A stretch of 64,000 bases of DNA from Companilactobacillus pabuli (GTDB lineage: Bacteria; Bacillota; Bacilli; Lactobacillales; Lactobacillaceae): the NCBI RefSeq assembly GCF_014058425.1, contig NZ_CP049366.1, positions 806,001 to 870,000 on the forward strand, in the 5' to 3' direction. The position numbers and the translations under genes are program-made. Below the pieces are notes generated by a model. The model made no database searches and had not been told where the DNA came from. It saw only the letters and a program-made list of their open reading frames with translations. This document shows positions 52,217-58,399 of this stretch, in pieces. Within the stretch, counting starts at the first letter, position 1, and each line of letters starts with the position of its first letter.

Positions 52217-53461
52217 ATGAACATTATTGATGAATTATCATGGCGTGGCCTGATCAATCAACAATCCGATGAAGAGGGATTGAGAAAATTAGTTGACGAA
52301 AAGGCCATCTCACTTTACTGTGGTATGGATCCAACAGGGGATTCAATGCACATCGGTCACTTGTTGCCATTTATGACTTTGGAAAGATTCGCTAAAGCTG
52401 GTCACCATCCTTATATCGTTATCGGTGGTGCTACTGGTTCAATCGGTGATCCAAGTGGTAAAAAAGCTGAACGTCCTATGCAAACAATGGACCAAGTTAA
52501 CCACAATGTAGAGGCTTTGAGTAATCAAGCTAATAAGATCTTCAGTAACTTCACTATGGTTAATAACTATGATTGGACTCATCAAATCGGTATTTTGGAC
52601 TTCTTGCGTGACTACGGTAAATTGTTCAACGTTAATACAATGTTGAATAAGGAAATTATTTCCAGCCGTTTGGAAGTAGGAATTTCCTTTACTGAATTTA
52701 CTTATCAAATCTTACAATCACTTGATTTCTTAACACTTTACCGTCAACACAACGTACAATTGCAAGTTGGTGGTGGTGACCAATGGGGTAATTTGACTGC
52801 TGGTTTGGACTTGATTCACAAAACTGAAGGTCAAGATGCTAAAGTTTATGCTTTGACAATTCCATTGCTTCTTAAAGCTGATGGTACAAAGTTCGGTAAA
52901 ACTGCTGGTGGTGCTGTATGGCTTGATCCTAAGAAGACTTCACCTTACGAATTCTATCAATTCTGGTTCAATCAAGATGACAAGGACGTTATTAACTTAT
53001 TGAAGAAATTTACTTTCTTGTCAAAAGAAGAAATAAATAAATTAGCTGAAGCAGTTAAGACAGCTCCTGAAAAACGTTTAGCACAAAAGACTTTGGCAGA
53101 AGAAGTTACTAAGTTTGTTCACGGTGAAGAAGCTCTAAAGACTGCTGAAAAAATCACTGACGTATTGTTCTCTGGTGAAATCCAAGAATTGACGACAGAA
53201 GAAGTTGCTGAAGCCTTCCACGGTGTTCCTAGTGAAGAAATCTCAAGCGCCCCTATCAATTTAGTTGACCTCTTGATTGCTGTTAACGTCGACAAGTCAA
53301 AACGTCAAGCTCGTGAAGATATTCAAAATGGTGCCATCAGAATCAATGGTGAGAGATTAACTGATACAACAACTGAAATCGATCCAAAAGATTCATTTGA
53401 CGGCAAGTACATCGTAATTCGTCGTGGTAAGAAGAAATATTTCTTAGCAAAAATTAACTAA
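52217..53461 (+). CDS. tyrS: tyrosyl-tRNA synthetase
   Basis: A class I synthetase that charges tRNA-Tyr. The HIGH motif is exact at residues 45-48 and the KMSKS loop reads KFGKT near 225, as in the bacterial TyrS type. A C-terminal S4 RNA-binding domain begins near 350 (VDLLIAVNVDKSKRQAREDI). The frame is open upstream into the T-box, but AGGAGGA before ATG 52217 sets the start, giving 414 residues. Confidence 0.98.
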   Translation: MNIIDELSWRGLINQQSDEEGLRKLVDEKAISLYCGMDPTGDSMHIGHLLPFMTLERFAKAGHHPYIVIGGATGSIGDPSGKKAERPMQTMDQVNHNVEALSNQANKIFSNFTMVNNYDWTHQIGILDFLRDYGKLFNVNTMLNKEIISSRLEVGISFTEFTYQILQSLDFLTLYRQHNVQLQVGGGDQWGNLTAGLDLIHKTEGQDAKVYALTIPLLLKADGTKFGKTAGGAVWLDPKKTSPYEFYQFWFNQDDKDVINLLKKFTFLSKEEINKLAEAVKTAPEKRLAQKTLAEEVTKFVHGEEALKTAEKITDVLFSGEIQELTTEEVAEAFHGVPSEEISSAPINLVDLLIAVNVDKSKRQAREDIQNGAIRINGERLTDTTTEIDPKDSFDGKYIVIRRGKKKYFLAKIN

Positions 53462-53466
53462 TACTA

Positions 53467-53495
53467 TTGACTGAGAATGTGAAATCGTTTATATT
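53467..53495 (+). promoter_or_regulatory. promoter of pyr operon, with cre-like overlap
   Basis: TTGACT (53467-53472), a 17-base spacer and TATATT (53490-53495). TGAAATCGTTTATA (53480-53493) overlaps the spacer and -10 and differs from a cre consensus at one position. Confidence 0.6.
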
Positions 53496-53513
53496 ATTTG
53501 CAACGAAAACTTT

Positions 53514-53605
53514 TAATCGAGTCCTGTGAGGCTTGGAAGGTTACTTACACATTAGACAGAAAAAGTGTAAACTTCCTTTCCTTGTGGGATAGGAAGTTTT
53601 TTGTT
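53514..53605 (+). promoter_or_regulatory. PyrR attenuator 1 of pyr operon
   Basis: The loop sequence GAGTCCTGTGAGGCTT (53519-53534) fits the PyrR-binding anti-antiterminator consensus around TCCNGNGAGG. Downstream, AAACTTCCTTTCC (53569-53581) pairs with GGGATAGGAAGTTT (to 53599), followed by T, forming a terminator. GGAAG near 53535 can pair instead with CTTCC to form the antiterminator. UMP-bound PyrR should promote termination. No gene lies between it and attenuator 2. Confidence 0.88.
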
Positions 53606-53635
53606 TACTAAAAAATAAATCGTCAGGGAACTTTT

Positions 53636-53717
53636 AAATAGATCCAGTGAGGTCTGAAAGGTCGGTTGAACACCAAACTTTTAGGGGTAGCTGGATAAAA
53701 GCTATCCCTTTTAATTT
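53636..53717 (+). promoter_or_regulatory. PyrR attenuator 2 of pyr operon
   Basis: AGATCCAGTGAGGTCT (53640-53655) is a second PyrR-binding loop. GGGGTAGCT (53684-53692) pairs with AGCTATCCC (53700-53708), followed by T4, as the terminator. AAAGGT and ACTTTT flank an alternative antiterminator. Confidence 0.9.
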
Positions 53718-53728
53718 GGAGGAAAACA

Positions 53729-54679
53729 ATGAAAAATATACTTTCTATGTCACAATTATCAAACGAAGAGGTACTGAACTTAATTGATTCCGCAATTGAT
53801 TTCAAGGCCGGTAAGAAATCAGAAATCGGTCAAGATAAATTTGCCATCAATTTATTTTTTGAAAACAGTACAAGAACAAAATCTAGTTTCCAAGTAGCTG
53901 AAATGAAGCTAGGGATGAAAGAAATCGAATTCGAGGCTTCAACATCTTCAACTTCTAAAGGTGAAACACTTTATGACACTGTCAAGACTGAAGAGAGTAT
54001 CGGTGCTAGTGTAGCAGTTATCCGTCACAGCCAAGACAAGTATTATGAAGATTTAGTAAATAATCATAATCTAAAAATTCACATCATCAACGGTGGTGAT
54101 GGTACTGGTCAACATCCTTCACAATCACTTTTGGACTTAATGACAATTTATGAACATTTCGGCAGTTTCGATGGTTTAAAGGTTGGTATTATCGGGGACT
54201 TGAGTCACTCACGAGTAGCCCATTCAAATGCTGAAATCTTAACAAGACTAGGAGCTTCAGTTTGCTTTGGCGGTTTGGATTCATGGTACACACCAGAATT
54301 TGCAGAAATTGGACCACATATGAGTGTCGATGAACTTTGCCAAGAAATGGACGTTGTGATGTTACTTAGAGTTCAACATGAACGTCTTTCTGCTGAAGAA
54401 AACAAAAATTTCTCCAAAGCTGACTATTTTGAAAAATACGGTTTGGATATGAATCGTGTCAATATGATGAAACCTGATGCAATGATCATGCACCCAGCTC
54501 CAGTTAACCGAGGAGCAGAAATTGCTGATGACGTTGTGGAATGTGACAAGTCATATATTTTCCCTCAAATGGCTAACGGTGTCTTTATGAGAATGGCAAT
54601 GATTGAAGCAGTTTTAGAAGGAGATAATGCAGAAGATGAACTTATTGGTCAAAAATGCAAAATTGTTCTACACAAATAA
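53729..54679 (+). CDS. pyrB: aspartate carbamoyltransferase, catalytic subunit
   Basis: PyrB joins carbamoyl phosphate and aspartate, the first committed step of pyrimidine synthesis. The carbamoyl-phosphate motif STRTKSSF is at residues 47-54. HPSQSLLDLMTIYE and the HPAPVNRG loop are present. Length 316. A regulatory chain gene (pyrI) is absent, as expected for Firmicutes. AGGAGG-like GGAGGA precedes the ATG. Its last 53 bases also encode the beginning of pyrC. Confidence 0.97.
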   Translation: MKNILSMSQLSNEEVLNLIDSAIDFKAGKKSEIGQDKFAINLFFENSTRTKSSFQVAEMKLGMKEIEFEASTSSTSKGETLYDTVKTEESIGASVAVIRHSQDKYYEDLVNNHNLKIHIINGGDGTGQHPSQSLLDLMTIYEHFGSFDGLKVGIIGDLSHSRVAHSNAEILTRLGASVCFGGLDSWYTPEFAEIGPHMSVDELCQEMDVVMLLRVQHERLSAEENKNFSKADYFEKYGLDMNRVNMMKPDAMIMHPAPVNRGAEIADDVVECDKSYIFPQMANGVFMRMAMIEAVLEGDNAEDELIGQKCKIVLHK

Positions 54680-55907
54680 ATTAATCAATTGTGATCTTTT
54701 GATTGAAAATGGCAAGTTTTCAAAAATTGCCGAAAATATTCATCCTCAAGGCAGTAAAATAATCGATGCTAAGTTCAATCTAGTTACGCCAGGCTTAGTT
54801 GACGTCCACGTCCATTTCAGAGAACCAGGACAAGTTCATAAGGAAACGATTGAGACGGGAACGAAAGCTTCAGCTCATGGTGGTTTTACGACCGTTGGTG
54901 CGATGCCTAATGTTATCCCAGTACCTGATGATGCCGAAAAATTTACGAAGCAGATTGAATTGAACAAAAAGAATTCAGTTATTCATACTTTGCAATACGC
55001 ACCAGTTACTAAAGATGAAACTAGTGATGAATTAGTTGATATTGAAAAGTTAAGCAAGCTAGGAGCCTTCGCCTTTTCAAACGATGGTCACGGAATCATG
55101 AATGCTAAGTCGATGTTTGATGCCATGGAAAGAATTGCCGCTATCAACAGTCATTTAGCAGCTCACGTGGAAGATAAGAACCTCTTCAATAAGGGTGTTA
55201 TTAATTTTGGACCTGCAGCTATACGTTTAGGTTTGCCAGGCATTCAACAAGTAGCAGAAACATCACAATTAGCTAGAGATTTGATGTTGGCTAAAGAAAC
55301 CGGCGTTCACTACCATGTTTGTCACATTTCAACTAAAGATGGCGTGGATTTGGTCAGAGTGGCTAAGGATGCTGGAATCAATGTTACTTGTGAAGTATCG
55401 CCACACCACTTGTTGTTGAGTGAAGATGATATTTTGACAAACGATGCTAATTTCAAAATGAATCCACCATTGCGTAGTGAAAATGATCGTCAAGCTTTAA
55501 TCAGCGGTTTGCAAGATGGCACGATCGACATGATTGCAACTGATCATGCGCCACACGCTGAAAATGAGAAGAATCAAGGTTTTAAAAAGAGCGCCTTTGG
55601 AATCACTGGTATCGAAACGAGTTTTCCATTGATGTACAGCCGCTTAGTCAAAACAGGCATCATTAGTTTAGAAAAATTATTGAATCTGATGTCGACTAAT
55701 CCAAGTAGGATTTTTGACTTAAATGAAGCCGGAGAAATTAAGCTTGGACAAAAAGCTGATTTTTCAATCATCAATCTAGATGATGAATTTGAAATTAATA
55801 AAGCTGATTTTATTTCCAAAGGTTTCAACAGTCCATTCATCGGACAAAAGGTCTTTGGTTCAGTGCAACAAACTTATTGTGATGGACAACTAGTCTATTC
55901 GAAATAG
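54627..55907 (+). CDS. pyrC: dihydroorotase
   Basis: A zinc amidohydrolase (class I) that cyclises carbamoyl aspartate. The metal motif DVHVHFREPG lies near residue 58, KxxAHG-type residues near 90, and TDHAPH near 305 completes the metal site. Two starts are possible inside pyrB: ATG 54627 with AAGGAG only 3 bases away, or ATG 54636 (MNLLVKNAKL) 12 bases after it. Neither spacing is ideal. The overlap suggests coupled translation with pyrB. Confidence 0.95.
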   Translation: MQKMNLLVKNAKLFYTNKLINCDLLIENGKFSKIAENIHPQGSKIIDAKFNLVTPGLVDVHVHFREPGQVHKETIETGTKASAHGGFTTVGAMPNVIPVPDDAEKFTKQIELNKKNSVIHTLQYAPVTKDETSDELVDIEKLSKLGAFAFSNDGHGIMNAKSMFDAMERIAAINSHLAAHVEDKNLFNKGVINFGPAAIRLGLPGIQQVAETSQLARDLMLAKETGVHYHVCHISTKDGVDLVRVAKDAGINVTCEVSPHHLLLSEDDILTNDANFKMNPPLRSENDRQALISGLQDGTIDMIATDHAPHAENEKNQGFKKSAFGITGIETSFPLMYSRLVKTGIISLEKLLNLMSTNPSRIFDLNEAGEIKLGQKADFSIINLDDEFEINKADFISKGFNSPFIGQKVFGSVQQTYCDGQLVYSK

Positions 55908-55923
55908 AGAATGAGGGGTAAAA

Positions 55924-56616
55924 ATGAATAAGCCAGTAATAGTAGCGTTAGATTTTGCAGATGATTTTGAATGTATTAACTTTTTGAATCAATTTCCTAA
56001 GGAACAAAAATTATTTTTGAAGATTGGTTTGGAAATGTTTTGTCAATTCGGTTATCCGTTTGTTAGAAATTTGAGAGAACGTGGTTACAATATTTTTCTT
56101 GATTTGAAGTTACATGATATTCCCAATACAGTTAAGAGAACTTGTGAAATGATTGCTAAATGGGATGTTCAAATGCTAACTGTCCATGCCAGTGGTGGTG
56201 CTGAAATGATTGCCGCTGCCAAAAAAGGTTTAGCAGGTTCTGATACGAAATTACTTGCCGTTACACAGTTAACTTCGTTAGGACAAACTGAATTAAAGAA
56301 TGAATTACAAGTACCACTACAATCTCAAGATTATGTTACACATCTAGCAAAATTAGCATTTGATAACAAAGCCGATGGCGTTATTTCATCAGCTTTGGAA
56401 GTGCCAATGATCAAACAAGCTACTAGTGAAGAATTTTTATGCGTTACCCCAGGTATTCGTCCCAAAGCATCACAAGTGGAAGATCAAAAGCGTGTCGCTA
56501 CACCAGCCAAAGCTAAGACTTTAGGCAGTGATGCCATTGTGGTTGGTCGTCCGATTACTTTAGCTGAAAATGGTTATCAAGCATACATGAATATTTGTAA
56601 GGAGTGGAATAAATAA
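55924..56616 (+). CDS. pyrF: orotidine 5'-phosphate decarboxylase
   Basis: PyrF decarboxylates OMP to UMP. The catalytic motif DLKLHDIPNT lies near residue 60 with its Lys and Asp. VTPGIRPK and VVGRPIT near the C-terminus form the phosphate-binding site. Length 230 is normal. The stop codon overlaps the pyrE start by one base (TAATG), typical of translational coupling. Confidence 0.97.
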   Translation: MNKPVIVALDFADDFECINFLNQFPKEQKLFLKIGLEMFCQFGYPFVRNLRERGYNIFLDLKLHDIPNTVKRTCEMIAKWDVQMLTVHASGGAEMIAAAKKGLAGSDTKLLAVTQLTSLGQTELKNELQVPLQSQDYVTHLAKLAFDNKADGVISSALEVPMIKQATSEEFLCVTPGIRPKASQVEDQKRVATPAKAKTLGSDAIVVGRPITLAENGYQAYMNICKEWNK

Positions 56617-57254
56617 TGGATAAAATCTCAGTCGCAAACAATATTGCCAGTCAATTATTAAAGATCAAGGCGGTGACCTTGAATCCTAAAGAACCCTTCG
56701 TTTGGGCCAGTGGCATTAAGGCTCCGATTTATACAGACAATCGTTTGACCATTGCTTATCCAGATTTTCGCCAAACAATTGCACATGATTTGGCTGAATT
56801 GATCAAAGAAAAATATCCTGAAGCTGAAGTTATCGGAGGAGTTGCCACAGCAGGAATTCCCCATGCTACTGGTGTTTCTAATATTTTAAACTTGCCATTG
56901 AACTATGTCCGTCCGCAAAAAAAGGATCACGGCAAGAAGAGTCAAATCGAGGGTCGCTGTCAAAAAGGCGACAAAGTTGTTTTGATCGATGACTTGATTT
57001 CAACTGGTGGCAGTATTTTAAAAGCCGTCAAAGCAGTTGAAGAAGAGGGCGGAGATGTAATTGGAACTGTCGCAATTTTCTCTTATGATTTGCCAGAAAG
57101 TACTAAGAACTTTGCTGATGCGCATACTAAATTATTTACGTTGACGGATTATCCAACCATGATTCAAGTAGCTCAAAAATTAGACTACGTTGAAGAAAGC
57201 GATATGGAATTATTGCAACAATGGTATCAAAATCCAGAAAGTTGGGGTAAATAA
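56616..57254 (+). CDS. pyrE: orotate phosphoribosyltransferase
   Basis: PyrE attaches PRPP-derived ribose phosphate to orotate. The PRPP-binding motif VVLIDDLISTGGS is near residues 121-133. YVRPQKKDHGKKSQIEG, with the flexible catalytic loop, precedes it. Length 212. It overlaps pyrF and pyrD by one base each, so expression of F, E and D is tightly linked. Confidence 0.97.
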   Translation: MDKISVANNIASQLLKIKAVTLNPKEPFVWASGIKAPIYTDNRLTIAYPDFRQTIAHDLAELIKEKYPEAEVIGGVATAGIPHATGVSNILNLPLNYVRPQKKDHGKKSQIEGRCQKGDKVVLIDDLISTGGSILKAVKAVEEEGGDVIGTVAIFSYDLPESTKNFADAHTKLFTLTDYPTMIQVAQKLDYVEESDMELLQQWYQNPESWGK

Positions 57255-58399
57255 TGAGTCTATATAAGTTAGTTCGTCCAGTGATTTTTAAAGGTGATCC
57301 TGAAGTTGATCATCATTTAGTAGCTAGTGGCTTGAAATTGTTTAATAAGACACCAGAAGTCTTGGAAACAATGTTTCAAGCTAAAAAACCAGACAATATT
57401 AAAGTAACCGTCAAAGGAATTACTTTTGATTCGCCAATTGGTATTGCCGCAGGTTTCGATAAAAAAGCTGAATTTTATAATAGTTTGGGTGCCTTAGGTG
57501 CAGGATTTGTTGAAATCGGAAGTATCACTAAAAATGATCAACCCGGCAATAAGAAAAAACGGATCTTTCGTTTGCCAGAAGACAACGCTATTATCAATCG
57601 TATGGGCTTAAATAACTTAGGCGTTGAAGAAACAAGACGTCATTTAGCTAACACTCCTAAACACGTCAAAGTTGGTATCAGTGTGGCTCCAGGACATGGT
57701 TTGAGTAGTGAAGAAATGGTCGAAGAAATGGTTGAAGATATCAAAGAAATTCATTCTTTTGGTGACTACATCGCTTTGAATCAAAGTTGTCCTAATCAAA
57801 AAGGTGTCACAACTTTACAAGAGATTCCGGTGGCTAAGAATTTGTTACAAAAGATTCACAATTTGCACATTAAGGAGCCAGTATTTTGTAAATTTGGTAA
57901 TGACATTACTGCTGAACAACTGATTGAATTGATTAAAGAAACTGATGGTTTGATGGATGGAATTATTTTGACTAATACAGCTTCAAATCCTAGTCCAATT
58001 CATGACAACCTCAAGTCAGCTCATAAAAATGAAGGTGGTGGTCTCAGTGGTAAGCCAATCTTCAAGAAATCATTGAGTTTAACTAGAGCAATCCATTCAG
58101 CTTTTCCTGATTTGCCAATTATGTTCTCTGGTGGGGTATTCACACCTGAAGATGCTAAAGCAGCTTTAATTGCAGGCGCAAGTTTGGTTCAAGTTTATAC
58201 CGGCTTTATTTATAATGGACCTACTTTAATGAAACAAATTAATCAATATTTATCAGAAAATAAAATTATTAATTCAGATGATTATCAAAACGTTTGTGAA
58301 GCTCCAATTAGAGATTCTGAAGATTTAGCTGTAACACCAATTAACGAAGATAAGAAAGTGGAATTGGATGCCAATTCTGGTGCATCATTTCATGAATAA
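57254..58399 (+). CDS. pyrD: dihydroorotate dehydrogenase, class-2-like
   Basis: A flavoenzyme that oxidises dihydroorotate to orotate. The 381-residue protein has a class 2 style N-terminal extension (LYKLVRPVIFKGDPEVDHH, residues 3-21) and the class 2 motifs GFDKKAEFYNSLGALG and RIFRLPEDNAIINRMGLNN. No pyrK gene is present, which also fits class 2 (quinone-linked, membrane-associated). However, the catalytic-base region reads LNQSCPNQKG with Cys179, where class 2 enzymes usually have Ser. It has an unusual polar C-terminal tail of about 35 residues. Last gene of the operon. Confidence 0.92.
   Translation: MSLYKLVRPVIFKGDPEVDHHLVASGLKLFNKTPEVLETMFQAKKPDNIKVTVKGITFDSPIGIAAGFDKKAEFYNSLGALGAGFVEIGSITKNDQPGNKKKRIFRLPEDNAIINRMGLNNLGVEETRRHLANTPKHVKVGISVAPGHGLSSEEMVEEMVEDIKEIHSFGDYIALNQSCPNQKGVTTLQEIPVAKNLLQKIHNLHIKEPVFCKFGNDITAEQLIELIKETDGLMDGIILTNTASNPSPIHDNLKSAHKNEGGGLSGKPIFKKSLSLTRAIHSAFPDLPIMFSGGVFTPEDAKAALIAGASLVQVYTGFIYNGPTLMKQINQYLSENKIINSDDYQNVCEAPIRDSEDLAVTPINEDKKVELDANSGASFHE

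Follow-up and report, generated by a model that had tools for sequence, protein, structure and literature searches.

Does the leader of the pyrB operon of Companilactobacillus pabuli carry two complete PyrR attenuators one behind the other, and what could a second one contribute? An initial annotation of a 64-kb stretch of this 2.5-Mb genome (hereafter the window) had described such a pair in one leader with no gene between the two, and our analysis confirms this observation. We conclude that the pyrB leader very probably consists of two complete, ordinary PyrR attenuators arranged in series on one RNA. What we observed directly comprises the two elements with their order and conservation, compensatory changes in terminator 1 and in each of the two stem-loops, and the location of the only pyrR gene elsewhere in the genome.

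The pyrB leader contains two PyrR stem-loops

The leader is flanked by tyrS on its 5' side and by pyrB-pyrC-pyrF-pyrE-pyrD on its 3' side (Table 1), the pyr genes being named from recognisable sequence and from matches to them in relatives. The predicted promoter directly follows the tyrS stop codon and is conserved among the leaders of the genus, with a predicted transcription start at about 53502. It was the sole candidate on the + strand within 53300-53900. No promoter-like site was found between the two elements on this strand and in this interval, so that the objection foreseen in the initial annotation, a promoter there that starts the main transcript, finds no support.

Table 1. Features of the pyrB leader and operon in the window
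Feature	Position	Strand	Basis
Sigma-70-like promoter TTGACT-17-TATATT (predicted)	53467..53495	+	Consensus match alone
PyrR-binding stem-loop 1 (anti-antiterminator 1), loop region TCCTGTGAGG	53508..53542	+	Rfam, independent model, fold
Antiterminator 1 (predicted)	53521..53590	+	Prefix folding
Intrinsic terminator 1 (hairpin 53571-53597, then T-run)	53571..53602	+	Hairpin; covariation
PyrR-binding stem-loop 2 (anti-antiterminator 2), loop region TCCAGTGAGG	53630..53662	+	Independent model; covarying pairs; Rfam below cut-off
Antiterminator 2 (predicted)	53642..53696	+	Prefix folding
Intrinsic terminator 2 (hairpin 53683-53709, tail TTTAATTTG)	53683..53718	+	Hairpin and T-rich tail in 30/30 aligned
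Ribosome-binding site of pyrB, GGAGG	53718..53722	+	Sequence
pyrB-pyrC-pyrF-pyrE-pyrD operon	53729..58399	+	ORFs and translations

We scored both elements with covariance models. The Rfam model RF00515 matched element 1 at 53506-53605 with 59.6 bits, above the curated cut-off of 54 bits, and element 2 at 53627-53716 with 36 bits (E 0.0014), below that cut-off. Because the full-length Rfam model takes in a long variable linker and the terminator, of which element 2 has short forms, we built a model of the stem-loop only, with 36 positions and trained on 39 elements, all from outside the genus. This independent model ranked the two stem-loops first and second in the 64 kb: stem-loop 1 at 53509-53544 (37.8 bits, E 2.3e-6) and stem-loop 2 at 53630-53665 (33.1 bits, E 2.9e-5), the third-best match in the window reaching 12.7 bits. 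According to this model, element 2 shows the conserved PyrR stem-loop with UCCNGNGAGG. The two loops that the initial annotation had placed at 53519-53534 and 53640-53655 are confirmed by Rfam and the independent model taken together; as for the individual scores, element 1 passes in Rfam, and element 2 falls short there and is recognised by the stem-loop model. In the whole genome, the independent model gave six matches at E <= 1, all of them in leaders of pyrimidine-related genes: carA and pyrB are each preceded by two, and single matches precede a cytosine-permease-type gene and the uracil permease gene.

A terminator and a predicted antiterminator accompany each stem-loop

Both loops have their own intrinsic terminator. 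The hairpins, initially located at 53569-53599 and 53684-53708, were confirmed and refined to the limits given in Table 1. The tail after the second hairpin is TTTAATTT, in which the T-run is short and interrupted by AA. A hairpin with a T-rich tail was present in 29/29 first and 30/30 second aligned elements.

We then compared covariation in the alignment with that of 500 shuffles, counting sequences and not independent events. Terminator 1 has five pairs changed on both sides, and its covariation was reached by 0/500 shuffles. Stem-loop 2 has four such pairs, with 95% of cells paired and a covariation above that of all 500 shuffles; one of its pairs, for example, is C-G in 21 sequences and U-A in 8. 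Stem-loop 1 is almost invariant across the alignment. For terminator 2, the same comparison gave no clear covariation signal, probably owing to variation in loop length.

Prefix folding returned the same order for each element, namely the stem-loop, then an antiterminator using the PyrR loop and finally the terminator, with each antiterminator appearing just before the terminator can close. In predicted antiterminator 1, residues 53521-53531 pair with 53580-53590 and 53535-53539 with 53572-53576; in predicted antiterminator 2, 53642-53648 pair with 53690-53696 and 53653-53660 with 53678-53685. Folding alone is weak evidence for such structures: when the downstream sequence was shuffled, some pairing with the loop still arose in 53-61% of cases, and we rejected the folding-only test for this reason. 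Antiterminator 1 shows three pairs changed on both sides, 93% of cells paired and a covariation score reached by 1/500 shuffles. For antiterminator 2, the pair count over the whole alignment was not above that of shuffles, probably because the terminator loop lengths differ among lineages. Compensation is nevertheless visible in the leaders of two species: in most leaders, the PyrR loop carries UCCAG and the loop of terminator 2 CUGGA, UCCGG faces CCGGA in L070, and UCCUG faces CAGGA in L073. Among 255 elements from all fetched loci, the variable loop base was associated with its downstream complement (A with CTGG in 56 and with CAGG in 11, T with CTGG in 15 and with CAGG in 26; Fisher p 9e-7, uncorrected for relatedness). 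Folds and compensations speak for the antiterminators that the initial annotation had considered possible, which stay predicted structures, and the whole-alignment count for the second does not.

The pair is conserved in the genus, and PyrR is encoded elsewhere

A complete pyrB leader was available from 31 of the 36 genomes of the genus, window included. In G008 the leader is cut at a contig end, and a pyrB-type leader was not found in G002, G013, G015 and G025. Both complete elements are present in 30 of the 31 leaders. The exception, G014 (L089), has an intact element 2 but only a remnant of element 1, in which stem-loop 1 is present and terminator 1 is lost. The same tandem pair is carried by the related Lactobacillus sp. 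YT155 (G069).

The pyrR gene is found as a single copy at G000:C1:1068694-1069215 (241 bits; cut-off 138), and exactly one strong pyrR match was obtained in each of the 36/36 genomes of the genus. Since this sole pyrR lies outside the pyr operon, PyrR must act in trans, as had been supposed; carAB and the uracil permease gene are likewise located elsewhere in the genome. The neighbours of pyrR are lspA and rluD on its 5' side and, on its 3' side, a second carA together with a short carB of 800 amino acids (L028, 1189-5219). No PyrR element was detected in front of pyrR in this genome. Three PyrR loops are present in the carAB leader (L021, 5560-6050), along with two promoter-like sites. The middle loop is atypical (GGACCCTGTGAGATC). 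Of the other two, the first carA loop is closest to pyrB loop 1 (0.75) and the last carA loop to pyrB loop 2 (0.72).

Two attenuators in series would tighten repression

Following the logic of the PyrR attenuator family, we infer PyrR binding, termination at both sites and multiplicative control. At high UMP, PyrR supplied in trans would bind stem-loop 1 and block antiterminator 1, and RNA polymerase would consequently stop at terminator 1. Polymerases escaping this terminator would be subject to an identical choice at element 2, immediately ahead of pyrB. Because the attenuators stand in series, their readthrough fractions should multiply, and expression of pyrBCFED would be roughly the product of the two. 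Two elements would thus allow a tighter shut-off than one, and such a two-step repression plausibly fits the retention of both.

Closely spaced PyrR elements recur in other bacteria

We surveyed the family with Rfam, taking a single genome per genus from 39 other genera; in five of these (G069, G056, G039, G396 and G053), pyrB is preceded by a closely spaced pair. Other genera of the family have an element-pyrR-element layout. A strict-pattern scan within the family had returned tandems almost only in Companilactobacillus; this pattern undercounts, because the Rfam scan found the pyrB pairs in these five other genera. In public named genomes, a scan for two boxes 81-141 bases apart gave at least 120 stretches, mostly from Firmicutes. 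Among the matches listed, the downstream gene was pyrB in at least 41 cases, an MFS transporter gene in at least 40, the uracil permease gene in at least 24, carA in at least 6, pyrR in at least 2 and another gene without a name in at least 7. Of seven such loci sampled from different genera, all but L276 had one or more elements confirmed by Rfam at the threshold used, and in L241 all three were confirmed. The tandem arrangement is therefore recurrent and not peculiar to the C. pabuli window. Being both conserved and recurring, the pair is real and probably useful, and it is built only of known parts.

The tandem boxes linked to MFS genes were seen in Bacillus, Lysinibacillus, Paenibacillus and Sporosarcina (L122, L124, L141, L165, L182 and about 35 more, among the matches listed); in L122, L141 and L182, the first box is confirmed by Rfam. 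The transporter resembles aromatic acid/H+ symporters with a score of 278.7 bits, below the cut-off of 418.55, and we would guess that its substrate is pyrimidine-related. In L182 (5380-5450, - strand), a short open frame, MDKTAIIHSPEL, begins right after the second PyrR box, and similar short-frame starts occur in several MFS leaders.

Origin of the pair

The initial annotation had put forward the deletion of an ancestral pyrR or pyrP gene. In its strongest form, the pair would be the leftover of a deletion of pyrR (and pyrP) between two ancestral attenuators, without any function beyond its history, which we consider possible but doubtful. Several Lactobacillaceae do have pyrR between two elements, and the route can be seen in another genus. 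Between the two loops of G396 lies a 23-nt stretch that matches the 3' end of this genome's pyrR at 20/23 positions (relic score of 31 versus 24 for the best of 500 shuffles), and a member of the same genus retains pyrR between the two loops. In contrast, no pyrR relic scoring above shuffles was found in the window's own spacer, and the spacers of the genus score no better. In addition, L241 has the order element-pyrR-element-element-pyrB; therefore, tandem pairs also form with pyrR still in place, and local multiplication of elements also occurs. The short 36-nt cores of the genus elements are 69% alike mutually, versus 61% between the second elements and the canonical second element, and the long retention of the pair argues against neutrality. 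Deletion of pyrR thus stands as a visible route in another genus but is unproven in Companilactobacillus.

In L276 (1065-1132), a relic of the pyrR 3' end lies between two PyrR loops, and an intact pyrR is found just upstream. This locus is a snapshot of pyrR loss from between attenuators.

Role of the second element

In the leaders of uracil permease and MFS genes (L129, L133, L146, L207 and others), a terminator belongs to the first element in nearly all cases among the matches listed. For the second element, no terminator was detected in 23/24 uracil permease and 40/40 MFS leaders among the matches listed, by a detector limited to loops of 3-9, which overlooks hairpins with longer loops, apparently including that of L125. 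Because no terminator was detected and the start codon is close, the sequences of these leaders suggest translational control by the second element. The wider survey suggests that tandem PyrR elements are common and follow two or more designs. A broader reading is that they form a widespread, undescribed layer of pyrimidine control, in which the first element would act on transcription and the second on transcription before pyrB and carA and on translation before the uracil permease gene and the new MFS transporter gene, and in which element 2 of the window may do both. We regard this generalization as rather unlikely.

Applied to the window, the translational model would have element 1 act on transcription and element 2 mainly on translation. 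It draws on the leaders just described (24 uracil permease and 40 MFS second loops near the start codon, mostly without a detected terminator, among the matches listed) and on the position of terminator 2, whose hairpin ends about 8 nt 5' of GGAGG. However, a terminator-like hairpin followed by a T-rich tail is found in every second element of the genus, and the ribosome-binding site of pyrB is unpaired in the predicted folds, so that we consider a mainly translational element 2 decidedly unlikely.

It is even more improbable that only element 1 attenuates and that element 2 is the decaying remnant of an older attenuator between pyrR and pyrB. The lower Rfam score and the weaker T-run of element 2 would fit such a decay, but this element is kept in every complete leader, its stem shows compensations, its terminator is found in 30/30 sequences, and the sole damaged case (G014) hit element 1. 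Finally, although only a few bases separate the end of tyrS from the promoter, the idea that the first hairpin is merely the tyrS terminator and that the true leader has a single PyrR element is virtually untenable, given that the promoter and the top-scoring PyrR stem-loop lie between tyrS and this hairpin and that the same first element precedes carAB, where the upstream gene is different.

Comparison with known systems

Two complete PyrR attenuators in series thus remain our preferred reading of the pyrB leader. This leader offers a small natural system in which to ask about the contribution of a second identical RNA switch, be it a steeper response, a deeper shut-off or insurance, and the genus provides about thirty natural versions of it, one of which has lost terminator 1. 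Annotation of PyrR regulons would be affected, because the second element often falls below the Rfam cut-off. The parts are known; no description of tandem PyrR attenuators was found in the literature searched, which included neither the main review nor the pyr paper on Lactococcus.

The pyr operon of Bacillus subtilis has several PyrR sites in series. The C. pabuli elements resemble these attenuators in the sequence and fold of the stem-loop, in the predicted antiterminator that overlaps the loop and in the intrinsic terminator. However, in B. subtilis pyrR and pyrP lie between the sites, and the operon itself encodes PyrR, whereas in C. pabuli they share one leader and pyrR is located elsewhere. 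Similarly, the canonical Lactobacillaceae layout, element-pyrR-element-(uraA)-pyrB (L278, L280, L281 and L282), has two elements upstream on one transcript but, unlike C. pabuli, about 650-700 bases and pyrR between them and a second core of CCRTTTAATTG.

Two RNA copies per leader are also found in tandem T-boxes and tandem glycine riboswitches, where they have been proposed to sharpen or increase control (PMC4342826, PMC3766115). PyrR sites beside SAM riboswitches, T-boxes and yybP-ykoY have been listed in Bacillus methanolicus (PMC4342826), pairings that look unusual for pyrimidine control. The tandem T-boxes and glycine riboswitches sense a tRNA or a metabolite, while the sensor of the PyrR pair is a protein. 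Moreover, the glycine tandems share one expression platform, whereas the PyrR elements have one terminator each.
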